From a virus: DNA of 22,920 bases. The notes under the pieces were generated by a model, which was given only the letters and a program-made list of their open reading frames with translations, had not been told where the DNA came from and made no database searches. The DNA is taken from IMG/VR virus record IMGVR_UViG_3300009026_000067, positions 1 through 22,920 of that record; one strand, 5' to 3'. How positions within the stretch are numbered: the stretch's first letter is position 1; each line of letters starts with the position of its first letter. This document shows, piece after piece, positions 7,051 to 20,210 of the stretch. Both the position numbers and the translations under genes were made by a program.

Positions 7051-7467
7051 TCAGCCGACCCCCGTGAGGATGGTGCCCGCGGTCGTGGTGTCCGTCGTCA
7101 TCCGGAAGGTCGGCCCCGCGTTCGGCGTGACGAAGAACTGCAGGCGGAGGACCTCGCGCGAGAAGAGGACGATCTTCGTGTCGACCCGGTTGACGCGTTC
7201 GTCCTTCGAGAGCTCGGCGTTGATGCGAGCCGGGAGCGCCGCCAGCTCGTCGTCGGTCATGCCTCGTGAGAGGTAGGACGCGAGCTCGAGCCCCGCGTCC
7301 TCGCCGTCCTCGCCGTCGTCCACCAGGCTCCCGCGCGGCATGTCGAGCCGGTGCACGCAGACCTGTGCGAGCCCCTCGATCGAGTCGGCGGCGATCTCGC
7401 GCCCGGTCGGATCGAGGTCGAACCCGCACGCGAGATCGAGCCCGTATTGGGGGGCGGTCGTCGTCAT
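7051..7467 (-). CDS. Mu gp46-like baseplate protein (138 aa)
   Basis: The real start is ATG 7467, overlapping the hub stop as ATGA; the frame is also open further upstream but that part is the antisense or alternate-frame shadow of the hub gene. The product carries the GP46 family look: YGLDLACGFDLDPTGRE near residues 8-23, then a segment with LASYLSRGMTDDELAALPAR (62-81) and a C-terminal strand pair (VDTKIVLFSREVLRLQFFV, 95-113). GP46 proteins are the small wedge subunit related in role to T4 gp25 and initiate sheath assembly. Gene order hub-gp46-gp47-gp48 supports it. Confidence 0.85.
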   Translation of the reverse strand: MTTTAPQYGLDLACGFDLDPTGREIAADSIEGLAQVCVHRLDMPRGSLVDDGEDGEDAGLELASYLSRGMTDDELAALPARINAELSKDERVNRVDTKIVLFSREVLRLQFFVTPNAGPTFRMTTDTTTAGTILTGVG

Positions 7468-8672
7468 ACCTTCACCTTGGCCGTGAGGTTCACGCCCGGC
7501 GTGTGCGGCTGGACGGTGTAGGGCAGCGCGCCGTTGACCTGGGCGAGCGTCGGGGGAAGGAGCGTGTCGCCGTAGCAGACGACCCGTCCGGCGGTGATGA
7601 AGTTGTTGTCGCGCCCGCTGCCGAGCTCGACCATGTCGGCCCCCTTGCCTACCCGCACAACCTCCTCCGCGTTGAGGTCGAGCTCGAGCGGAAGGTGGGC
7701 CGCGTCGTCTTTCCTGGTGAAGCCGCGCACGATCGGCATGGACGGGTTGCCCTCGATGAAGTCGACGAGGACGACGCTGCCGAGAGCGGGCTTGGCCGCG
7801 GCGCCGGCGACACCTGGGACCATCCCGATGAGCGGCAGGTCCGGGAGCCCGAGCGTCCGGTCGACGGCCTGCAGGTACAGCCGGTCGACGACCTGCTGCA
7901 CGACGCGGTATCGGAACGGGCCGCCGAAGAAGCGCGCCCGCGGCATCGCATCGCGCACGAGCTCGGAGAAGAGCGCCGCGAGCTCGCCGGCGTTGTCCGC
8001 TCCGGCCCACGCTCGAGCGCGGATGTCGTTCTGCTGCACCCAGACCTCGAGGTCGTGGATCACGAACGTGCCCACGAGGCGCGGATCGCTGAACGAGGCG
8101 CCGGGCAGGATGAGGCGCAGATCGTCGGTGACGATGGTCGCGCTTCGACCACGCGGATCGACGTCGAGGACCTCGATCTTGCCTGTGACGTCCGTCGTCG
8201 GGCGGGCCCCGATGCGCGTCGTGCCGTCCGGATTGATCCACCAAGTCGACGACGGGAAGGCCTGGTCGATGATGCGCGCCGCCTGGCCAGCCTCCCGGGT
8301 GAAGTCAACGCCGAGGACCTCGTCGCCGACCGCGTCGATGCTGACCGTCTCGCCCACGACCGTCGCGAGCAGCTCGGCCACGTCGCGTCGCCGGACGCCG
8401 GCGTCGTTGTGGTGCGGGTGCGGCCCGACCGTCTTGCGCCATCCCCCGGCGCCCTGCAGGAGCCGCGCGCGCGTCCGGTCCGCGAAGGTGCCCTTCGCGT
8501 CGACGTCGACGATGCAGGCGAGCTCGAGCTCGCCGATGCTCAGGGCGACGCTCCCGTCGAGCTGGACCTCGTCCGCGAAGGCGATGTCGGCGGAGCCGAC
8601 GCCGCGCCACGGGAGCACGAGGTAGAGCTCGGTGCAGCGGTGCCCCCCGGCGGTGACGTTGAAGGTGGCCAT
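7464..8672 (-). CDS. Baseplate hub protein with OB-fold/spike-type region (402 aa)
   Basis: ATG 8672 directly follows the upstream TAG. Residues about 1-240 read like a gp27/gp44-type hub body with paired domains. Residues about 280-318 (MVPGVAGAAAKPALGSVVLV, then FIEGNPSMPIVRGF) match the OB-fold of gp5, VgrG and gpV proteins, which links the hub to the membrane-piercing spike. The remaining 80 residues are short beta-type sequence, too little for a long needle but enough for a small spike base. Mu encodes hub (gp44) and spike (gp45) separately, so this gene appears to combine them. It caps the tail tube at the baseplate centre. Confidence 0.75.
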   Translation of the reverse strand: MATFNVTAGGHRCTELYLVLPWRGVGSADIAFADEVQLDGSVALSIGELELACIVDVDAKGTFADRTRARLLQGAGGWRKTVGPHPHHNDAGVRRRDVAELLATVVGETVSIDAVGDEVLGVDFTREAGQAARIIDQAFPSSTWWINPDGTTRIGARPTTDVTGKIEVLDVDPRGRSATIVTDDLRLILPGASFSDPRLVGTFVIHDLEVWVQQNDIRARAWAGADNAGELAALFSELVRDAMPRARFFGGPFRYRVVQQVVDRLYLQAVDRTLGLPDLPLIGMVPGVAGAAAKPALGSVVLVDFIEGNPSMPIVRGFTRKDDAAHLPLELDLNAEEVVRVGKGADMVELGSGRDNNFITAGRVVCYGDTLLPPTLAQVNGALPYTVQPHTPGVNLTAKVKV

Positions 8673-9227
8673 CTACTTCGCGGCCTCCTTCTCGATCTCG
8701 TCCATGATCTGCTCGATGATCGCGTCGGCCTCGTCCTTCGGCTGGGGCTCGTCCGGGCTCGCGGCCTCCGACTTGGCGGGCTTGCCGAGACCGGGCTCGG
8801 GCGCGCGGAACTGCTTGACCTTGATGGTGCAGCCCCAAAGCCCGGTGTCGTCGCGCTCCTCGAGCTGCGTCCGATCCACGACGACGACGCTCTTGATGTC
8901 GAGGTCCGCGCACGCCGGGTGCTCGATGTCGTACGCCTTCGGTTTCTGGCCCTTCGGCGTCTTCGCGATCACCGCCTGGACGTTGGCGGACCGCCACTCG
9001 TCGAAGTGCTCCGGCTCCCAGAGCTCGACGTCGATGTCGAACTCCGCCAGCCCGTCGCCGACCCACTTCAGCGACGCGCCGCTGGTCCCGTTGCCCTTCT
9101 GCTCCGCCCACTCGCGAGGCGAGCTCGCGCCCTTGGGGAAGGCCTTGCCGGGCAGCTGAACGCCACCGAGCCGCGTGCGGTCCCACGCGTCGGCCTCTTC
9201 GGGGCGGAGCGGGTTCGCGAACGTCAC
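8673..9227 (-). CDS. Tail/baseplate adaptor, position of Mu gp43 (184 aa)
   Basis: GTG 9227 overlaps the tape measure stop (GTGA). The core (about 12-130) contains LGGVQLPGKAFPKG, a probable beta segment ASLKWVGDGLAEFDIDVELW (about 51-70), and the run IEHPACADLDIKSVVVV (about 101-117), a pattern common in baseplate adaptor proteins that follow tape measure genes. The last 45 residues are acidic/basic, Lys/Glu-rich and probably helical or disordered. I cannot name the family with confidence. By position it is the hub adaptor that joins tube, tape measure and hub; Mu has its gp43 (N) here. Confidence 0.6.
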   Translation of the reverse strand: MTFANPLRPEEADAWDRTRLGGVQLPGKAFPKGASSPREWAEQKGNGTSGASLKWVGDGLAEFDIDVELWEPEHFDEWRSANVQAVIAKTPKGQKPKAYDIEHPACADLDIKSVVVVDRTQLEERDDTGLWGCTIKVKQFRAPEPGLGKPAKSEAASPDEPQPKDEADAIIEQIMDEIEKEAAK

Positions 9228-11062
9228 GCGGGCGCCCCCTGGAGAGGCGGCATCGCGCCGCCCTTGAGGACGCTGCGCAGGACGTCGATGAGCGCCGGGC
9301 GCAGCTTGATCTTGAAGTCCTCGACGTCTCGGACGCCCTCGACGTGGACGTGCAAGCCGTTGATGGTGACGCCGGCGGCGGCTGCCCTGTCTGCGCCCGC
9401 CCGCGGTCCGCTCCGAGCTGCGGTGGCGGCGCCGATCGCGGCCTCGCCCATCCCTTCGACGGCCCCTTCGACGCTGGGCGCTCCGTCCTCGACGCCCTTG
9501 GTCATGCCCTCCGTGATCTGGTGGCCCACGAGCATGAAGGCCTTCGACGGCGACGCGATCCCGAGCTCCTTCTTCGCGGCCGCGAGCGCCTTCTTCGCGA
9601 CGCCCGCGAGCGCGGCGATCACCTCGCTCGCGCCACCGGTGATCGCGCTGACGAGCCCGCGGATGATCGAGGTCCCGATCTCCGACCAGCTCATCCCCTT
9701 GATCTGGTCGTATGCGAGCTTGAAGGCTGCGCCCAAGGCGATGATGGCGACCACGGGCAGCAGCACGAAGGCGGCCAGCAGCACGAGCGCGAGGCCGACC
9801 ACACCGAGCATCACCGCGAAAGCCAGCCCGATCCCGACGCCCGCGGCGAGCGCGACCTTGAAGCCGTCGATCCCTTTCAGCGCATCCCCGCCGAACGCGC
9901 TCTTGAGGGCGTTCTTCACCTTCAAGATGACGAGGACGACCAGGAGGACGGCGATCACGATGCCCTTGAAGAACGCCGTGAAGACGCGCCCGTGCTTGCC
10001 GACGAAGTCGATCATCGGCTGGAACACGACCTCGGCGACGCGCCGGAGCGCCTTGCCGCTGGCCGTGCTCTGGTCGAGCAGGCCGACGACGTCCGCGAGG
10101 ACCTTGAGGACCGGATCAATCTTGAGGCCCGCGAAGATGCCGCTGAAGCCCTCCTTGAGCCGTTGGATGAGGTTCGGCAGCGAGAGCAGCTGCGCGCGCG
10201 CCGCCTCACCGAAGCGCTTCCGGATCGCGTCCTGGAGCTGCTTGAAGGTGTACTCACCCTCGAACCCGATCTCCTCGAGCCCCTTCACGACGACCTTGCC
10301 GGTCTTCGCCGCCTGCTCGAGCGCTGCCTTCAGCTTCGACGCCGGCCCCGCGCCGATCGTCGCCTGCACGGTCGCCACCGACTCGAGCGCCTGCGTGAGC
10401 GCCTCGCCTTGGATGCCCGCGAGCCGGAGCTCGCTGGCGATCGCCTGCAGCTCCGCTCGAGCGAGGGCAACCCGCCGGGCCACCTGGTCGATCGAGCGCG
10501 CGAGCGCGGCGCCTCCGGCCTCGCTCCCCGCGAGAGCCGTCAGGTAGATCCTCGCGCTCCGCGCGGCGTCGGCCATCTTCACCGCCAGCGCGAAGAGCGC
10601 GACGCCTGCCGCGAGCGCGATGACGCCGACCACACCGATCGCGAAGGCGATGCCAGCCGGGCTCGCGAGAACGGCGAGGAGTCCCTCCCCCTTTTGGATG
10701 ACATCGCCCATGGGGCCGCCGAGCTGCTGCAGCGCCTCTCCGAGGCCCTTGGTCCCCTCGACGACGCCGGCGGCCTTCTTCGACAGGTCGCCGAGGTTCC
10801 CGCCGAGCTTCAGGAACTGCGCCTGCGAGCTCGCGAGCGACGAGCGCACGGACGCGATCCGGTCCTGCAAGGCCTTCTTCTGCGCGACGACCTCGACGCT
10901 CGAGCCCTTGAGGCGCCCCATCGCCGCGGTCATGTCGCGGAGCTCCTGCTGGGCGGAGAGGATCTTCGCCTTCAGGCGCTCGAGCGCAGCGGCGGCGTCC
11001 TCGGCAGGCGCCGAGGTCTGGTCCTCGAGCTCGACCTCGAATGTCGCCTTTGCGTTCGCCAC
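9224..11062 (-). CDS. Tail tape measure protein (612 aa)
   Basis: GTG 11062 has AAGGAG 4 bases upstream and lies one base after the stop of the frameshifted chaperone. The N-terminal 120 residues are heptad-like helix. Hydrophobic stretches lie at about 137-160, 367-382 and 404-447. The C-terminal motif GIASPSKAF (501-509) followed by VGHQITEGMTKGVEDGAPS is a standard tape measure signature. In assembly it sets tube length and leaves through the membrane at infection. At roughly 0.15 nm per residue, 612 residues would mean a tail of about 90 nm, an estimate from the general relation. It is shorter than many myovirus tape measures. Confidence 0.9.
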   Translation of the reverse strand: MANAKATFEVELEDQTSAPAEDAAAALERLKAKILSAQQELRDMTAAMGRLKGSSVEVVAQKKALQDRIASVRSSLASSQAQFLKLGGNLGDLSKKAAGVVEGTKGLGEALQQLGGPMGDVIQKGEGLLAVLASPAGIAFAIGVVGVIALAAGVALFALAVKMADAARSARIYLTALAGSEAGGAALARSIDQVARRVALARAELQAIASELRLAGIQGEALTQALESVATVQATIGAGPASKLKAALEQAAKTGKVVVKGLEEIGFEGEYTFKQLQDAIRKRFGEAARAQLLSLPNLIQRLKEGFSGIFAGLKIDPVLKVLADVVGLLDQSTASGKALRRVAEVVFQPMIDFVGKHGRVFTAFFKGIVIAVLLVVLVILKVKNALKSAFGGDALKGIDGFKVALAAGVGIGLAFAVMLGVVGLALVLLAAFVLLPVVAIIALGAAFKLAYDQIKGMSWSEIGTSIIRGLVSAITGGASEVIAALAGVAKKALAAAKKELGIASPSKAFMLVGHQITEGMTKGVEDGAPSVEGAVEGMGEAAIGAATAARSGPRAGADRAAAAGVTINGLHVHVEGVRDVEDFKIKLRPALIDVLRSVLKGGAMPPLQGAPA

Positions 11063-11063
11063 G

Positions 11064-11686
11064 TCACTCCTTCAACGCGAGAGAGACCCGTATGCAGAGC
11101 TCACCGATGAGAATCGCGCCCACCTTCGACGGCGCCGTCCAGTTGTCCTCCCCGCGCGTCATCGCGAGGGCCCAGATGCACTCTCCGGCGAGCCGGACGT
11201 CGCGCCGTGCGTCTGCGAGGAGGGCCGTTATTTTCCCTCGTCCTCCTTCGTCTTGAGCCCGTAGAGGTCGGCGAGCTCGGTCGCGAGACCGCTAAGGCTC
11301 CCCGGCTGCTCCTCGAGGAACTCGGACAGCGAGACCTCGCGCCCGTTGAGCGCCGAGAAGACGACGCACGGCGACACGAAGTCCTCGACCGCCTTGTTCG
11401 GGATCGGGTTCTTGCCCGCACGCTCGGCCGCGCTCTGGAACTTCTTCCAGAGGACCTCGAGCCCTCGCTTGAGGACGATGAGGTTCGGCCCCACGCGGAC
11501 GGCGCGGATCTTGGTCGCCCCGTGCTTCTCCTCGAGCTCGGCGAGCGCCGTCTGGTAGACCGCCTCTCGCTCCTCCTCCTCGAGGTCGGCGAGCTTGCGC
11601 AGGCCTTCGCGACGCGCTTCCGCTGCCTCTCGCTTCGCGCGCGCAGCCGCGAGGCGCTCTTCGATCGTCGGTTGGTCAGCCATCAT
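11064..11686 (-). CDS. Tail assembly chaperone, -1 frameshift fusion form (gpG-GT type, about 207 aa)
   Basis: The in-frame product is the 152-residue chaperone. At its end the codons read GAG GGA AAA TAA, containing the heptamer G GGA AAA at 11231-11237 in the correct phase for -1 slippage. The -1 frame then continues for 55 codons (starting ITALLADARRDVRLAGECIW, ending LALKE) to a TGA at 11064-11066, one base before the tape measure GTG. No other gene occupies this 165-base stretch. A short G form plus a rarer GT form before the tape measure is the conserved layout of long-tailed phages, as in lambda gpG/gpGT. In assembly, the GT tail recruits tube subunits to the tape measure. Confidence 0.8.
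11184..11197 (-). other. Short hairpin downstream of the slippery site
   Basis: On the minus strand TCCGG-CTCG-CCGGA can form a 5-bp stem with a 4-base loop. It begins about 33 bases after the slippery heptamer, farther than the usual 5-9 base spacing of frameshift stimulators, so a stimulating role is doubtful. It may be incidental in GC-rich sequence. Confidence 0.25.
11228..11686 (-). CDS. Tail assembly chaperone, unshifted form (152 aa)
   Basis: ATG 11686 overlaps the tube stop as ATGA; the adjacent ATG 11683 is better spaced from AGAGG and may be the actual start. Residues about 5-60 are strongly charged and helical (RLAAARAKREAAEARREGLR, LADLEEEEREAVYQ), followed by a globular part (AVRVGPNLIVLKRGLEVLWK, 63-82) and an acidic end. 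No sequence motif is diagnostic, but size, place between tube and tape measure, and the slippery end identify it as the first chaperone. It is expected to coat the tape measure during tail assembly and to be absent from the mature tail. Confidence 0.8.
   Translation of the reverse strand: MMADQPTIEERLAAARAKREAAEARREGLRKLADLEEEEREAVYQTALAELEEKHGATKIRAVRVGPNLIVLKRGLEVLWKKFQSAAERAGKNPIPNKAVEDFVSPCVVFSALNGREVSLSEFLEEQPGSLSGLATELADLYGLKTKEDEGK
11231..11237 (-). promoter_or_regulatory. -1 ribosomal frameshift slippery site GGGAAAA
   Basis: The heptamer fits X XXY YYZ with X=G, Y=A, Z=A, in phase with the chaperone frame (GAG|GGA|AAA|TAA). Re-pairing of the Gly and Lys tRNAs in -1 is possible at all but the wobble base. 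The stop codon directly 3' may add to shifting by pausing the ribosome. The position at the end of the chaperone, and the open 55-codon -1 frame, are what is expected of the tail chaperone frameshift. Confidence 0.8.
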
Positions 11687-12159
11687 CGCCTCTTCGCCGC
11701 GTAGAGCGTCTTGCCGTTCTTCTTGATCTCCATGCACCCGAACGGGATCTCCTCCTTCGTCGGGTCGGCGCTCCCCTCCTCGCCGCCTCCGTCGTCGCCG
11801 GCGATCCAGCAGCCGAGGACCTCGTCCTTGATCGGACCGACGCCGTCCTCGATGTACTGGACGGTGATCGGGAAGCGCGCGTCGCCGTAGCTCTGACCGT
11901 CTGCGCTCTGCCGCGCGAGGTCGTCGCGGATCTGCTGCGCCGTGCCCTTGAGCACCGTGAGCGAGCCGTCCTCGGGGTTGTACTTGCCCCCGGTGACCGC
12001 GATCGGCTTGCGCTGGTTGCCCTGGCCGTAGACGCGCGTGCGCTCGCGCTTGTGGGAGTACTTGACCGCGAGGATGCCCTCGTAGGCCTTGCCGTTGACC
12101 CGGATGACCGTGCTGCCCCAGTCGTGGGCCTTGCCGTTGATGTAGACCGTCTCCGCCAT
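11683..12159 (-). CDS. Tail tube protein (158 aa)
   Basis: ATG 12159 lies 3 bases after the sheath stop. The sequence opens with VYINGKAHDWGSTVIRVNGK (about 5-24) and alternates beta strands (KYSHKRERTRVYGQG, PITVQYIEDGVG). A Gly/Glu-rich loop near 119-135 precedes a final strand (FGCMEIKKNGKTLYA). This size and strand pattern after a sheath gene are typical of contractile-tail tube subunits, which stack as hexamers inside the sheath. I see no family-defining motif, so the call rests on location and general character. Confidence 0.8.
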   Translation of the reverse strand: MAETVYINGKAHDWGSTVIRVNGKAYEGILAVKYSHKRERTRVYGQGNQRKPIAVTGGKYNPEDGSLTVLKGTAQQIRDDLARQSADGQSYGDARFPITVQYIEDGVGPIKDEVLGCWIAGDDGGGEEGSADPTKEEIPFGCMEIKKNGKTLYAAKRR

Positions 12160-12162
12160 GGC

Positions 12163-13614
12163 TCAGACCTCCACGATGGTGAGCGCCGGGTTGTAGAAGC
12201 CGACGTCGACGTCGAAGAACTTCACGTACCCGAGAGGGGTGACCCGGACCTTGCCCTTGAGCCGGAACGTCGAGAGCAGGTTGTCGCTCCGGTTCAGGAT
12301 GAACTTGGCCGCCGATGCGTTCCGGGTCTTCACGAGCAGCTCGTCGAGCTCGTGGTCGACGGCGGTGTCGATGTCGCTCGCCTCGTCCTCGACGATGAAG
12401 CCCGTGCTCGAGCTGACGATGAGGTCCGCGGAGGACCGGAGCTCGAGCACGCGCCTCGCGATGTCGCACGCGACGTTGATCACGCGCAGGTGCTGACCGA
12501 ACTGGTAGTCGCTCCCCGGCGTCGACAAGACGCGGCAGTTGTTGACGTACGCGCCGGGACTGTTCGCCCAGGAGCGGAGCGTGGTGAACCGCGAGTCGTC
12601 GAGGCCAGGGAAGAGCCGCTCGTCGTGGTGCTTCGGGTTCCGCGCGGCGTCGACGATGCGCACCCCGGGCAGCGGCCCGAGCGACTTCTCGGCGATGTCC
12701 TGCCCCGGGCGGACATCGACCAGCCGCGCTGCGACGGACATCGAGATCGGCCGGAGGTACTGCCGCTGCGAGATCGGGGACTGCATTTCGCACCCGCCCG
12801 CGCAGGGGATCGAGAACTTGGACACCGAGGCGCCGAACGCCGTGTCCATCGCCGTCTTGTAGGCGGTCTCGCTCTCGCCGATGTTCGGGACACGCGTGTT
12901 CCAGATGAAGGCGACCTCTTTGCCGACGGCCTCGAAGGCGACGGCCGCGGCTTGGATCGCGACGACGTCGGCGTCTCCCGCCACCGGGCCGACGATCTGG
13001 CACTGCTGGAACGTCTCGAGCGAGTTCCTGAGGGCAGTGAGCGCGGCCGAGAGCTGCGCCGTGTTCCACTTCGGCGCCGACGTCCGGCACTTCCAGGAGT
13101 CGCCGGCGAGCAGCGTTCCCGCGGCGAGGTTGAAACGGACGTTGCCGGCGAGCGTGATGTTCGTCGACGTTCCGAGCGCGGTGATCGCGCTCATCGTCCG
13201 GCCGCCGTCGAGGCTCCACCTGTAAGTGATACCGGCGACGCCGATCGTGCCGCCGACAACGATCTCGATGTATGCCTCGAAGTCGTCGTAGGGCTCGGTC
13301 GCGGCGTTCGTCGTGACGACGGACGTGCCGGCGACATCCGTCACGTCGACGGTTCCGTAGCCGCCGACGGTCGTGGTGGCGGTGCGGCAGAGGACCACCG
13401 GCCTCCCCGTCCACTCGAGCTCGTAGCAGGCAGCCTCGACAAGGGGTCCCTGTCCGAAGGTCGACTGGATATCCTCGGGGCGGTAGTAGAGCCCGGGCGT
13501 GTCGAGCGGCCCCGAGGAGCAGTTGCCGACGAGCGCCATCGTGTCGCCGGTCTGCGGCGGAGTGACGCCGAGCTGGTTGTCGAGGCGGTTGATGTTGACG
13601 GCGGGGACGGACAT
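12163..13614 (-). CDS. Tail sheath protein (DUF2586-type, 483 aa)
   Basis: ATG 13614 is preceded by AAGGAG. The N-terminal third is probably the variable part, with a beta-rich insertion (GVAGITYRWSLDGGRTMSAI, about 115-137). Residues about 200-483 carry the sheath core: NTRVPNIGESETAY, the linking segment PISQRQYLRPISMSVAARL (about 271-290), the GPLPGVRIVDAARN stretch, and the C-terminal beta strands LKGKVRVTPLGYVKFFDVDV, which in sheath proteins join neighbouring subunits. The family looks like the DUF2586 sheath group rather than the classical gpL group. It contracts to drive the tube through the cell envelope, so the virion is a myovirus. Confidence 0.85.
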   Translation of the reverse strand: MSVPAVNINRLDNQLGVTPPQTGDTMALVGNCSSGPLDTPGLYYRPEDIQSTFGQGPLVEAACYELEWTGRPVVLCRTATTTVGGYGTVDVTDVAGTSVVTTNAATEPYDDFEAYIEIVVGGTIGVAGITYRWSLDGGRTMSAITALGTSTNITLAGNVRFNLAAGTLLAGDSWKCRTSAPKWNTAQLSAALTALRNSLETFQQCQIVGPVAGDADVVAIQAAAVAFEAVGKEVAFIWNTRVPNIGESETAYKTAMDTAFGASVSKFSIPCAGGCEMQSPISQRQYLRPISMSVAARLVDVRPGQDIAEKSLGPLPGVRIVDAARNPKHHDERLFPGLDDSRFTTLRSWANSPGAYVNNCRVLSTPGSDYQFGQHLRVINVACDIARRVLELRSSADLIVSSSTGFIVEDEASDIDTAVDHELDELLVKTRNASAAKFILNRSDNLLSTFRLKGKVRVTPLGYVKFFDVDVGFYNPALTIVEV

Positions 13615-18183: not shown

Positions 18184-18609
18184 CTTCCTCTCCTTCGTCC
18201 GCCCTCCGGCGGTGAAACGTTCACGCGCGCGCGCCGCCATGGCCCGCGCGATCTGGCCCCTCCGGGCCGCAGTCTTCGCGTTCGTGATCGCCTCGGCGAT
18301 CGCCCAGACCGCCTGCTCCTCGGCGGCGATCTCGGGCTGGGTGTTCCCGGAGAACGGCGCGAAGTGGAGGTGGACGAGCTCGTGCACGAGCGTCTCCTCG
18401 ACCGACGGATCGTTCTCCGTCGCGGGCGTCTCCGGGTCACGGATCTGGATGCGCGCGCGCTTCGCGTCGACCAGGTGCGAGCACAGCCCGTGCACCGGGT
18501 AGCCGCTGGAGGTGCAGAGGTTCGGCACGTACGAGACCTCGATCCGCCAGTCGAGGAGCCGTAGGTCGCGCTGCAGCTCGGCGAGGAGGGCGATGAGATC
18601 GGGCTTCAT
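17365..18609 (-). CDS. HExxH metallopeptidase domain fused to scaffold-like region (414 aa)
   Basis: ATG 18609 overlaps the portal stop (ATGA). Residues 1-130 form a zinc-metallopeptidase-like domain: LDWRIEVSYVP (19-29), a strand RARIQIRDPE (51-60), the helix ETLVHELVHLHF (72-83) with HELVH at 76-80, and downstream glutamates at 97-98 as candidate third ligand. The pattern resembles SprT-like or small phage-borne zincins, not the serine prohead proteases of Mu gpI or HK97. Residues 143-414 are the scaffold-like region with Gly8 at 171-178 and a duplicated 44-residue segment. By position it takes the place of the protease/scaffold gene. Whether it cleaves head proteins is unknown. Confidence 0.8.
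   Translation of the reverse strand: MKPDLIALLAELQRDLRLLDWRIEVSYVPNLCTSSGYPVHGLCSHLVDAKRARIQIRDPETPATENDPSVEETLVHELVHLHFAPFSGNTQPEIAAEEQAVWAIAEAITNAKTAARRGQIARAMAARARERFTAGGRTKERKMDPAVIAALLALLESDPEAAKDYLKKLQGGGGGGGGEGAAPPAAQQPPPEEPRMQAPPAEEPRAARAVPTAQGAVSRQEFEQLQTEQLVHQHGASLNDEQRRFALTLAPAAVRSYLATLTSGAPAPASAAQAHTRAAATPSAPSTTAAPPAGVTRGEFERYRVDQYIELHGSSLNEAQKKFAQTLSYEQVRGYIATTVPSSTPAAQRNTAPAQGPRRQMSVDPTIQEVDRRMGLAPVPTQAIGRDPTTGRLTISNIAPAKVVKAAAAQTGGE
17593..17958 (-). repeat. Duplicated 44-residue protein segment in the scaffold-like region
   Basis: Residues 218-261 and 296-339 align without gaps: SRQEFEQLQTEQLVHQHGAS / TRGEFERYRVDQYIELHGSS, then LNDEQRRFALTLAPAAVRSY / LNEAQKKFAQTLSYEQVRGY. Shared positions include EFE, the HGxSLN core, Q, FA, TL, VR and YAT-like ends. 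The copies are separated by a 34-residue Ala/Pro linker. Two helices joined by HGxSLN are likely in each. The copies sit at 17827-17958 and 17593-17724. Confidence 0.85.
18076..18099 (-). repeat. GGC/GGA trinucleotide tract coding for Gly8
   Basis: Eight consecutive GGC or GGA codons form a short, nearly perfect trinucleotide tract in the linker of the scaffold-like protein. Such tracts are prone to expansion or contraction by whole codons, which would change only linker length. Confidence 0.7.
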
Positions 18610-20210
18610 GCCGCCGCCTTCGCCTGGCGGATGGGGCGCCAGCGCTTGTGCCAGATCAGGTTGCCGTCAGCGTCGCGCTCGCAGTCCGCGTCGACCTCGA
18701 CGCCGCACTTCGGGCACCGGTTCGTGTGGCCGTGCCAGCACGCGTCGGCCTCGAGCTCGGTCATGCGAGCGGCGAGCCGTGCCGCCGCGTCCTCCGTGAG
18801 CGGCTCATCCTCCTCGGGCGCGTACGCATCGGGAGGCTCGGTCGCGCCCGGGAGCGGGGCGCCGGTGTCGTTCGCCGGCGCGATGGTCGCGCCTGGGACG
18901 ACGGTCGAGATCGCCTGCTCGACGACCTTGATCGGAACGGCGAAGCGAACCGCGAGCTCACGGACGTCCACCTCGATCCCGTGAGCCACGAGGGACGTCG
19001 CCAGGTCGGTGATCGCCTTCGCGGCAGCCGAGAAGGCGTCGGCCTCCTCCTTCTTCGACGTCGGCTTGCGCGTGTCCCACACGACGCGCGCCTTCCTCGG
19101 GTTCGCGACGCGCCCCTCGAGGAGGAACGGGAGGATCTGCGCGCTGCAGGTGTTGCCGAGCTTCTTGCCGTCGCCCTCGATGAGGTCGCCGCGGATCGTC
19201 GCGTGGATGTCCGCGTTCGCGAACCCCGTGCCGCCCGTGGTGGTCACGACCTGGCCGGCGAGCGAGATCATGAACTCCTGGTTCGAGTCGCTGATCGTCT
19301 CGCGGAAGCTCTCGTAGCCGCGGCCGTTGCTCTCGAGGAGCTTCACGTCGTATCCGGGCAGCATCCCGAACACGGTGTTCATCCCCCAGGCCATGACCTT
19401 CTGGAACCAGGTCTGCCGTTGCAGCTCGGTCGACCCTTGCGGAGCGACCGCGACGCGCGCCGGGTGCGCCAGCTTCGCGTTCCAGTTCTCTCGATAGAGC
19501 ATGGCGTGCTCCTTCGAGATCGCGGCCCGCGCCAGGCACTGCCACAGCCCGCGGTTCCACGGCTCCTGCCGACCGCCCGGAAGATGCAGAACCCACCGCC
19601 CATCCCCTGGCGTGACGAGCTCGAGGCCGTGGACGGTCTGGTAGTACCAGCGGTCCTCCCACCATCGATAGATCAGGAACTCCGGGTCGAGCCGCACGAG
19701 AACCGGGTGGTCGAGCCCTTCGACGTCGATGAGCTCGGCGATCCCCGCGCCGCAGACAATGCCGTCGGCAGCCAGAAGCTCGAGCTCGGCGTCGGGGCAC
19801 GCGCGCTCGAAGAGCCCAGGCTCGCCCTCGGAGCCAGCGAGGAGCGCCCGCGTCTCGTCGTCGCCGGTGAACTTCTTCGGCAGCCGCACGAGGCCCCCGG
19901 TGCGGGTTCCGAGGAGCCCCTGCACGGTTCCGTCGCTCGCGAGCCAGCGGTAGATCCGCCCTACCAGCGAGAGGTCACCGGAGCCAGCACGGTGCTTCGC
20001 CGTCTCAACGTCGCTCTGGATCCATCGCGTGACCGTCTGCGGCTGACGGCTCGAGCGCTTCTTCTTCCGGACCGGTCGCTTGATGACGACGGGAGCGGAG
20101 GCGGCCGCGTCGGTCGGCGCGGGCGGGAGAGCTGGAACCGCCGACGGCACCGCCGAGGAGACGCCGAGGTAGAGCGCGAGCGCGCTCGCGGCGCGGCGCA
20201 TGAGGCTCAC
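18606..20210 (-). CDS. Portal protein (DUF935 / Mu gp29-like) with Cys-rich C-terminus (534 aa)
   Basis: GTG 20210 overlaps the terminase stop (GTGA); ATG 20201 three codons in is an alternative. After a low-complexity, Ala/Pro-rich N-terminus of about 45 residues, the core matches DUF935 portals: VTRWIQSDVETAKHRAGSGD, GLLGTRTGGLVRLPKKFTGD (about 99-118), a long aromatic region DPEFLIYRWWEDRWYYQ, then DSNQEFMISLAGQVVTTTGG (about 311-330) and FANADIHATIRGDL. These form the dodecameric ring for DNA entry. The C-terminus has C491, H493, H495, C499, C502 and C510 in CWHGHTNRCPKCG and beyond, a likely zinc-binding knuckle that is not part of the core family as I know it. Confidence 0.85.
   Translation of the reverse strand: MSLMRRAASALALYLGVSSAVPSAVPALPPAPTDAAASAPVVIKRPVRKKKRSSRQPQTVTRWIQSDVETAKHRAGSGDLSLVGRIYRWLASDGTVQGLLGTRTGGLVRLPKKFTGDDETRALLAGSEGEPGLFERACPDAELELLAADGIVCGAGIAELIDVEGLDHPVLVRLDPEFLIYRWWEDRWYYQTVHGLELVTPGDGRWVLHLPGGRQEPWNRGLWQCLARAAISKEHAMLYRENWNAKLAHPARVAVAPQGSTELQRQTWFQKVMAWGMNTVFGMLPGYDVKLLESNGRGYESFRETISDSNQEFMISLAGQVVTTTGGTGFANADIHATIRGDLIEGDGKKLGNTCSAQILPFLLEGRVANPRKARVVWDTRKPTSKKEEADAFSAAAKAITDLATSLVAHGIEVDVRELAVRFAVPIKVVEQAISTVVPGATIAPANDTGAPLPGATEPPDAYAPEEDEPLTEDAAARLAARMTELEADACWHGHTNRCPKCGVEVDADCERDADGNLIWHKRWRPIRQAKAAA

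Follow-up and report, generated by a model that had tools for sequence, protein, structure and literature searches.

Introduction

One of the closest described systems is the -1 frameshift of phage lambda, which yields the tail chaperone protein G and its extended form GT (Levin 1993; Xu 2004; reviewed in PMC5009743). The locus reported here resembles that of lambda in lying before the tape measure gene, in its GGGAAAR heptamer and in the predicted pair of a short and a long chaperone with T fused in the -1 frame. The lambda heptamer, however, ends 15 nt before the stop codon, whereas in the present phage the stop touches the heptamer. In the SEA-PHAGES training set, heptamer and stop lie 26 nt apart on average (PMC10885494). 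A second likeness is to phage Mu gp41, a chaperone also extended by frameshifting; the contractile, Mu-type gene order and the Mu-type portal are found here as well. Mu shifts by -2 at another sequence (PMC3498833), whereas the family described below would shift by -1, or by +1 in a side clade.

For the stop codon that adjoins the slip site, the nearest precedent is potato virus M, in which P-site slippage at AAAA_UGA with a shifty stop was proposed (Gramstat 1994, cited in PMC4737148), although the main review treats this case with caution (PMC5009743). Our literature search for a natural -1 case proposed with A_AAA plus a stop found potato virus M only. The likeness lies in A_AAA directly followed by a stop and in the proposed slippage of a single tRNA in the P site; the difference is that potato virus M is a plant RNA virus using UGA, whereas the present family consists of phages using UAA or UAG, mostly with a full heptamer. 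The shifty-stop sites of prfB and Listeria tsh differ in their +1 direction and in their slip codons. At the protein level, the comparison extends to the chaperones HK97 gp13 (2OB9), YqbN and RBSTP2171 (3FGX). The stretch of phage P2 that was fetched begins only after the chaperone genes, on their downstream side, and did not enter the comparison.

Results

The window, i.e., the whole stretch of 22,920 nt analysed, comes from an IMG/VR virus record, and its structural genes all lie on the minus strand. Their order is Mu-like: terminase, Mu-type portal (PF06074), capsid genes, DUF2586 sheath, putative tube, G, tape measure and baseplate J. The sheath gene (12163–13614, minus strand) matched PF10758 (3.9e-26) and phrog_907 (2.3e-23). 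The gene between it and G (11683–12159, minus strand) is a putative tail tube gene by position and by a weak PHROG tail match (2.4e-4); its top PHROG match, phrog_9206 (5e-8), carries the label major head protein. The tape measure gene (9224–11062, minus strand; GTG start, 612 aa) was matched by several PHROG tape measure families, the best at 1e-11. The Mu-type portal (18606–20210) has a Cys-rich C-terminal stretch, CWHGHTNRCPKCGVEVDADC, that resembles a zinc ribbon. An antisense ORF of 1093 aa (7266–10547, plus strand) lies opposite several tail genes and is probably a high-GC artefact.

G occupies 11228–11683 on the minus strand (151 aa, ATG at 11683, TAA at 11230–11228), with a second in-frame ATG at 11686, and its 3′ end reads AAG GAG GAC GAG GGA AAA TAA. 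As the initial annotation had proposed, the heptamer G_GGA_AAA (11237–11231, minus strand) stands in the X_XXY_YYZ phase before the zero-frame stop, with the UAA (11228–11230) immediately 3′ of it. The -1 frame, likewise as described there, is open for 55 codons from ATA (11231–11229) to GAG, running from (K)ITALLADARRDV to LALKE, and ends with TGA (11066–11064), so that the T extension spans 11064–11231 on the minus strand and a single base (11063) separates its stop from the tape measure GTG at 11062. The predicted GT fusion is 206 aa long, with EGKITALLADAR at the junction. The initial annotation was right to call G/GT-type frameshifting before tape measure genes established, since this is the known scheme of lambda (PMC5009743). 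GGGAAAA occurs once in the window on both strands together, against a chance expectation of 0.64, and G_GGA_AAA is the sole in-phase X_XXY_YYZ with Y = A or T among the 5,365 codon pairs of minus-strand genes. The open -1 frame alone is not evidence, because 35% of dinucleotide shuffles keep it open, and the window by itself is weak support for a frameshift.

Direct searches with G or GT in phage records gave no match, no Pfam or PHROG model matched the window G, and a G query in viral contigs returned the same phage only. Because G and T had no usable direct matches, relatives were fetched through sheath alignments, first Myxococcus phage Mx4, Meiothermus MMP7 and MMP17 and Thermus Riverbug, then viral contigs and three genome MAGs; the resulting set holds phages of Myxococcus, Thermus and Meiothermus, a Polyangiaceae MAG and IMG/VR contigs. 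An alignment of baseplate J with a sheath (A2) was mistaken and was ignored. The 57 first-round loci, chosen partly by their slip sites, served to build profiles of G and T, which were searched against every stop-to-stop ORF in 279 loci; the later loci were found by profile alone with no slip motif required. Both proteins were found in 223 of the 279 loci, pairs being accepted only where T overlapped the end of G or came straight after it. Of these loci, 213 had T in the -1 frame and 10 had it in the +1/-2 frame; none had it in frame. The non-redundant set has 126 members, 120 of them -1, and 116 of these 120 carry either a canonical heptamer (86) or an A_AAA-type core (30) located 0–12 nt before the G stop. 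Disruption of the heptamer or of the -1 frame in relatives, which the initial annotation had named as grounds for rejecting its proposal, was thus not the pattern seen. It is these relatives, rather than the window alone, that decide in favour of the predicted frameshift.

Two members of a lineage near the window (L014:6876-7202 and L088:2482-2802) have a T of about 105–107 codons against 55 in the window, apparently via an inserted segment. In the Mx4 (L004:6745-6933) and MMP7 (L005:6685-6834) records, T is annotated as a separate hypothetical gene and not as a frameshift product.

Between related pairs, substitutions in T at codon positions 1, 2 and 3 numbered 285, 200 and 618, and dN/dS was 0.09–0.3 in most pairs. 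By these measures T is under purifying selection and evolves as a protein. Its AlphaFold2 model comprises three helices (pLDDT 96.6), for which structure searches gave no meaningful match; T aligns across -1 and +1 members, and its domain starts right at the junction. The G profile matched PDB 3fgx (E=7e-5, profile positions 49–147), and the AlphaFold2 model of G (pLDDT 95.3) had 3fgx as its top Foldseek match (probability 1.00, target TM 0.70), with HK97 gp13 (2ob9) third. 3FGX has been described as a tail assembly chaperone (PMC9603447). G is a homologue of such chaperones, and the name tail chaperone given to it earlier is supported by both profile and fold, more weakly through HK97 gp13; gene order and the PHROG matches of the following gene place it directly upstream of the tape measure. 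Unlike 3FGX, the G model has a long N-terminal helix (residues 7–54), largely outside the matched region. The family's G and T profiles detected neither the lambda nor the Mu G/T proteins significantly.

The slip sites vary across the 126 non-redundant members. A canonical heptamer is followed directly by the stop in 55 and by a stop 3–12 nt later in 31; the heptamer has decayed to A_AAA with an adjacent stop in 27, which keep only A_AAA followed by UAR, and with a non-adjacent stop in three (L086, L106 and L225); the +1/-2 clade accounts for six and other sites for four. Two members with no A core (L202 and L217) have U_UUC near the G stop (ACU_UUC, CUU_UUC), the second-best tetramer class in E. 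coli. Decay of the heptamer represents at least eight changes on well-supported tree branches. The stop touches the slip codon, as in the window, in 82 of the 120 -1 members, being UAA or UAG in 81 of these 82, and AAAA stands directly before the stop in 79 of the 120 G genes versus none of the 708 ends of other genes from these loci. The 120 G genes end in UAG (72), UAA (36) or UGA (12), whereas the other 708 gene ends have UGA in 498, UAA in 134 and UAG in 76; UAG is strongly over-used as the G stop.

With regard to other candidate stimulators, a Shine-Dalgarno-like AAGGAGG (11242–11248, minus strand), absent from the initial annotation, lies 4 nt upstream of the heptamer and pairs strongly with the anti-SD sequence (-10.6 kcal/mol); across the family, anti-SD binding in this region is modestly stronger than under synonymous recoding (z = -2.4). 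The window RNA downstream of the slip site is not more structured than shuffles (z about +0.9), in line with the earlier remark that a hairpin at the usual spacing is absent. The family mean at +5 to +60 is weakly more structured (z = -0.96), and no single conserved downstream fold was evident in the structures inspected.

The Thermus and Meiothermus relatives, in which T lies in the +1/-2 frame, group together in a single clade (support 97), and all six of its members have UUU_C in the overlap, as GA[UA]_UUU_CGN or CGA_UUU_CUG. These members are L005 (6660-6680), L007 (6275-6290), L083, L087, L089 and L209, with sites such as GAU_UUU_CGG and CGA_UUU_CUG. A +1 shift is favoured here because re-pairing from UUU to UUC is better than any -2 re-pairing seen, so the clade appears to use UUU_C as a +1 site. 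A comparable +1 site with UUU re-pairing is UUU_CGU of influenza PA-X (PMC3498833). Within the family, the shift therefore appears to have changed direction, with the two-form chaperone retained.

Discussion

Comparison across the family makes it highly probable that a programmed -1 ribosomal frameshift produces two forms of the tail assembly chaperone. Most ribosomes would halt at the UAA to give G (151 aa), and a minority would slip back one base on G_GGA_AAA and read AUA ACG GCC onwards to give GT (206 aa). By analogy with lambda, G would coat the tape measure protein, and GT would recruit tail tube subunits through its T domain; given such lambda-like roles, the ratio of G to GT would matter. 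We infer the occurrence and efficiency of the shift, together with the roles of G and T, from these comparisons.

In its most likely detail, slippage would take place during a pause in which the P site contains Lys-tRNA paired with AAA and the A site contains the stop, with assistance from the SD-like sequence upstream. Both the placing of the stop against the slip site and the forms in which A_AAA is directly followed by UAR suggest P-site slippage aided by a release pause, i.e., a shifty stop. Because A_AAA is the weakest of the tetramers that work in E. coli (PMC4066793), slippage at the decayed sites would depend on assistance from the stop, from the SD-like element or from structure. Whether the adjacent stop really contributes to slippage we regard as evenly balanced. 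The raw association of decay with adjacency (27 of 30 decayed sites; Fisher p=0.009) was not significant in tree-corrected independent pairs, so that the role of the stop stands as a proposal.

The same tree-corrected result counts in favour of a tandem slip on the heptamer before translocation, with the adjacent stop having no effect and being kept for compactness or for a preference of T for Lys-Ile, an explanation whose probability we put only slightly short of even and which opposes the stop-assisted detail, not the frameshift itself. Slippage in the A and P sites is the general view for heptamers (PMC4066793), a canonical heptamer is present in 86 of the 120 -1 members, and 31 of these manage without adjacency, as do the three decayed non-adjacent members. 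With GGGAAAA, the usual tandem slip may suffice. Moreover, the first T codon next to a UAR stop is AUA (Ile), and selection for a T that opens with Lys-Ile could account for part of the UAR adjacency. Against this stand the 27 members that have lost the XXX half of the heptamer but keep A_AAA with an adjacent UAR, A_AAA alone being a weak tetramer in E. coli (PMC4066793). In addition, UGA is still depleted at non-adjacent G stops (9/31 vs 498/708 elsewhere, p=4e-6), a hint of selection on the stop itself, with the caveat that where the stop follows the slip by one codon, UAG and UGA can both leave leucine as the T-frame codon.

A fuller version of the stop-assisted reading, which we advance tentatively and hold to be somewhat less probable than either of these, is a natural bacterial -1 shifty stop, in which a single Lys-tRNA would slip on A_AAA in the P site with UAR in the A site, release factor supply would set the chaperone ratio with UAG favoured, and the heptamer would aid slippage without being required for it, the 27 decayed members being examples.

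It is very unlikely that T is instead a small gene in its own right, read by ribosomes that re-initiate past the G stop via the SD-like sequence. The strength of AAGGAGG close to the stop and the listing of the extension as a small ORF of its own in the Mx4 and MMP7 records would fit such a gene, but only 22 of the 120 -1 members have an ATG, GTG or TTG in the T frame at 30 nt or less from the G stop, the other 98 having none, and the T domain begins at the junction itself. AUA, with which the T frame opens in the window, is not a usual start codon. Separate initiation of T was rejected on the ground that a start codon near the junction is not conserved. Transcriptional rather than ribosomal slippage on the A run, for which A7–A8 runs in some relatives (L004, L036 and L085) could speak, is more improbable still, since in the window and in most relatives GGG is followed by A4 only, with the X_XXY_YYZ phase kept. 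That there is no frameshift and the -1 frame is a high-GC chance ORF, as its openness in shuffles would allow, has a negligible probability, being contradicted by the family data on T, namely its conservation, its bias among codon positions and its predicted fold.

Judged by its site, frames and neighbours, the predicted programmed -1 frameshift described here is of the known lambda G/GT class and not of the Mu type, in which the extension would lie in the -2 (+1) frame, and it occurs in a poorly catalogued family of myoviruses with a DUF2586 sheath. The adjacency of the stop makes it a distinctive variant of this class, and the stop is a candidate shifty stop; the stop-assisted mode suggested in the initial annotation is plausible, and its layout is conserved. 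The finding extends G/GT frameshifting to a myovirus family in which the extension is overlooked or listed as a gene of its own, and the approximately 120 natural site variants may be used to ask whether -1 slippage in bacteria is stimulated by an A-site stop codon.
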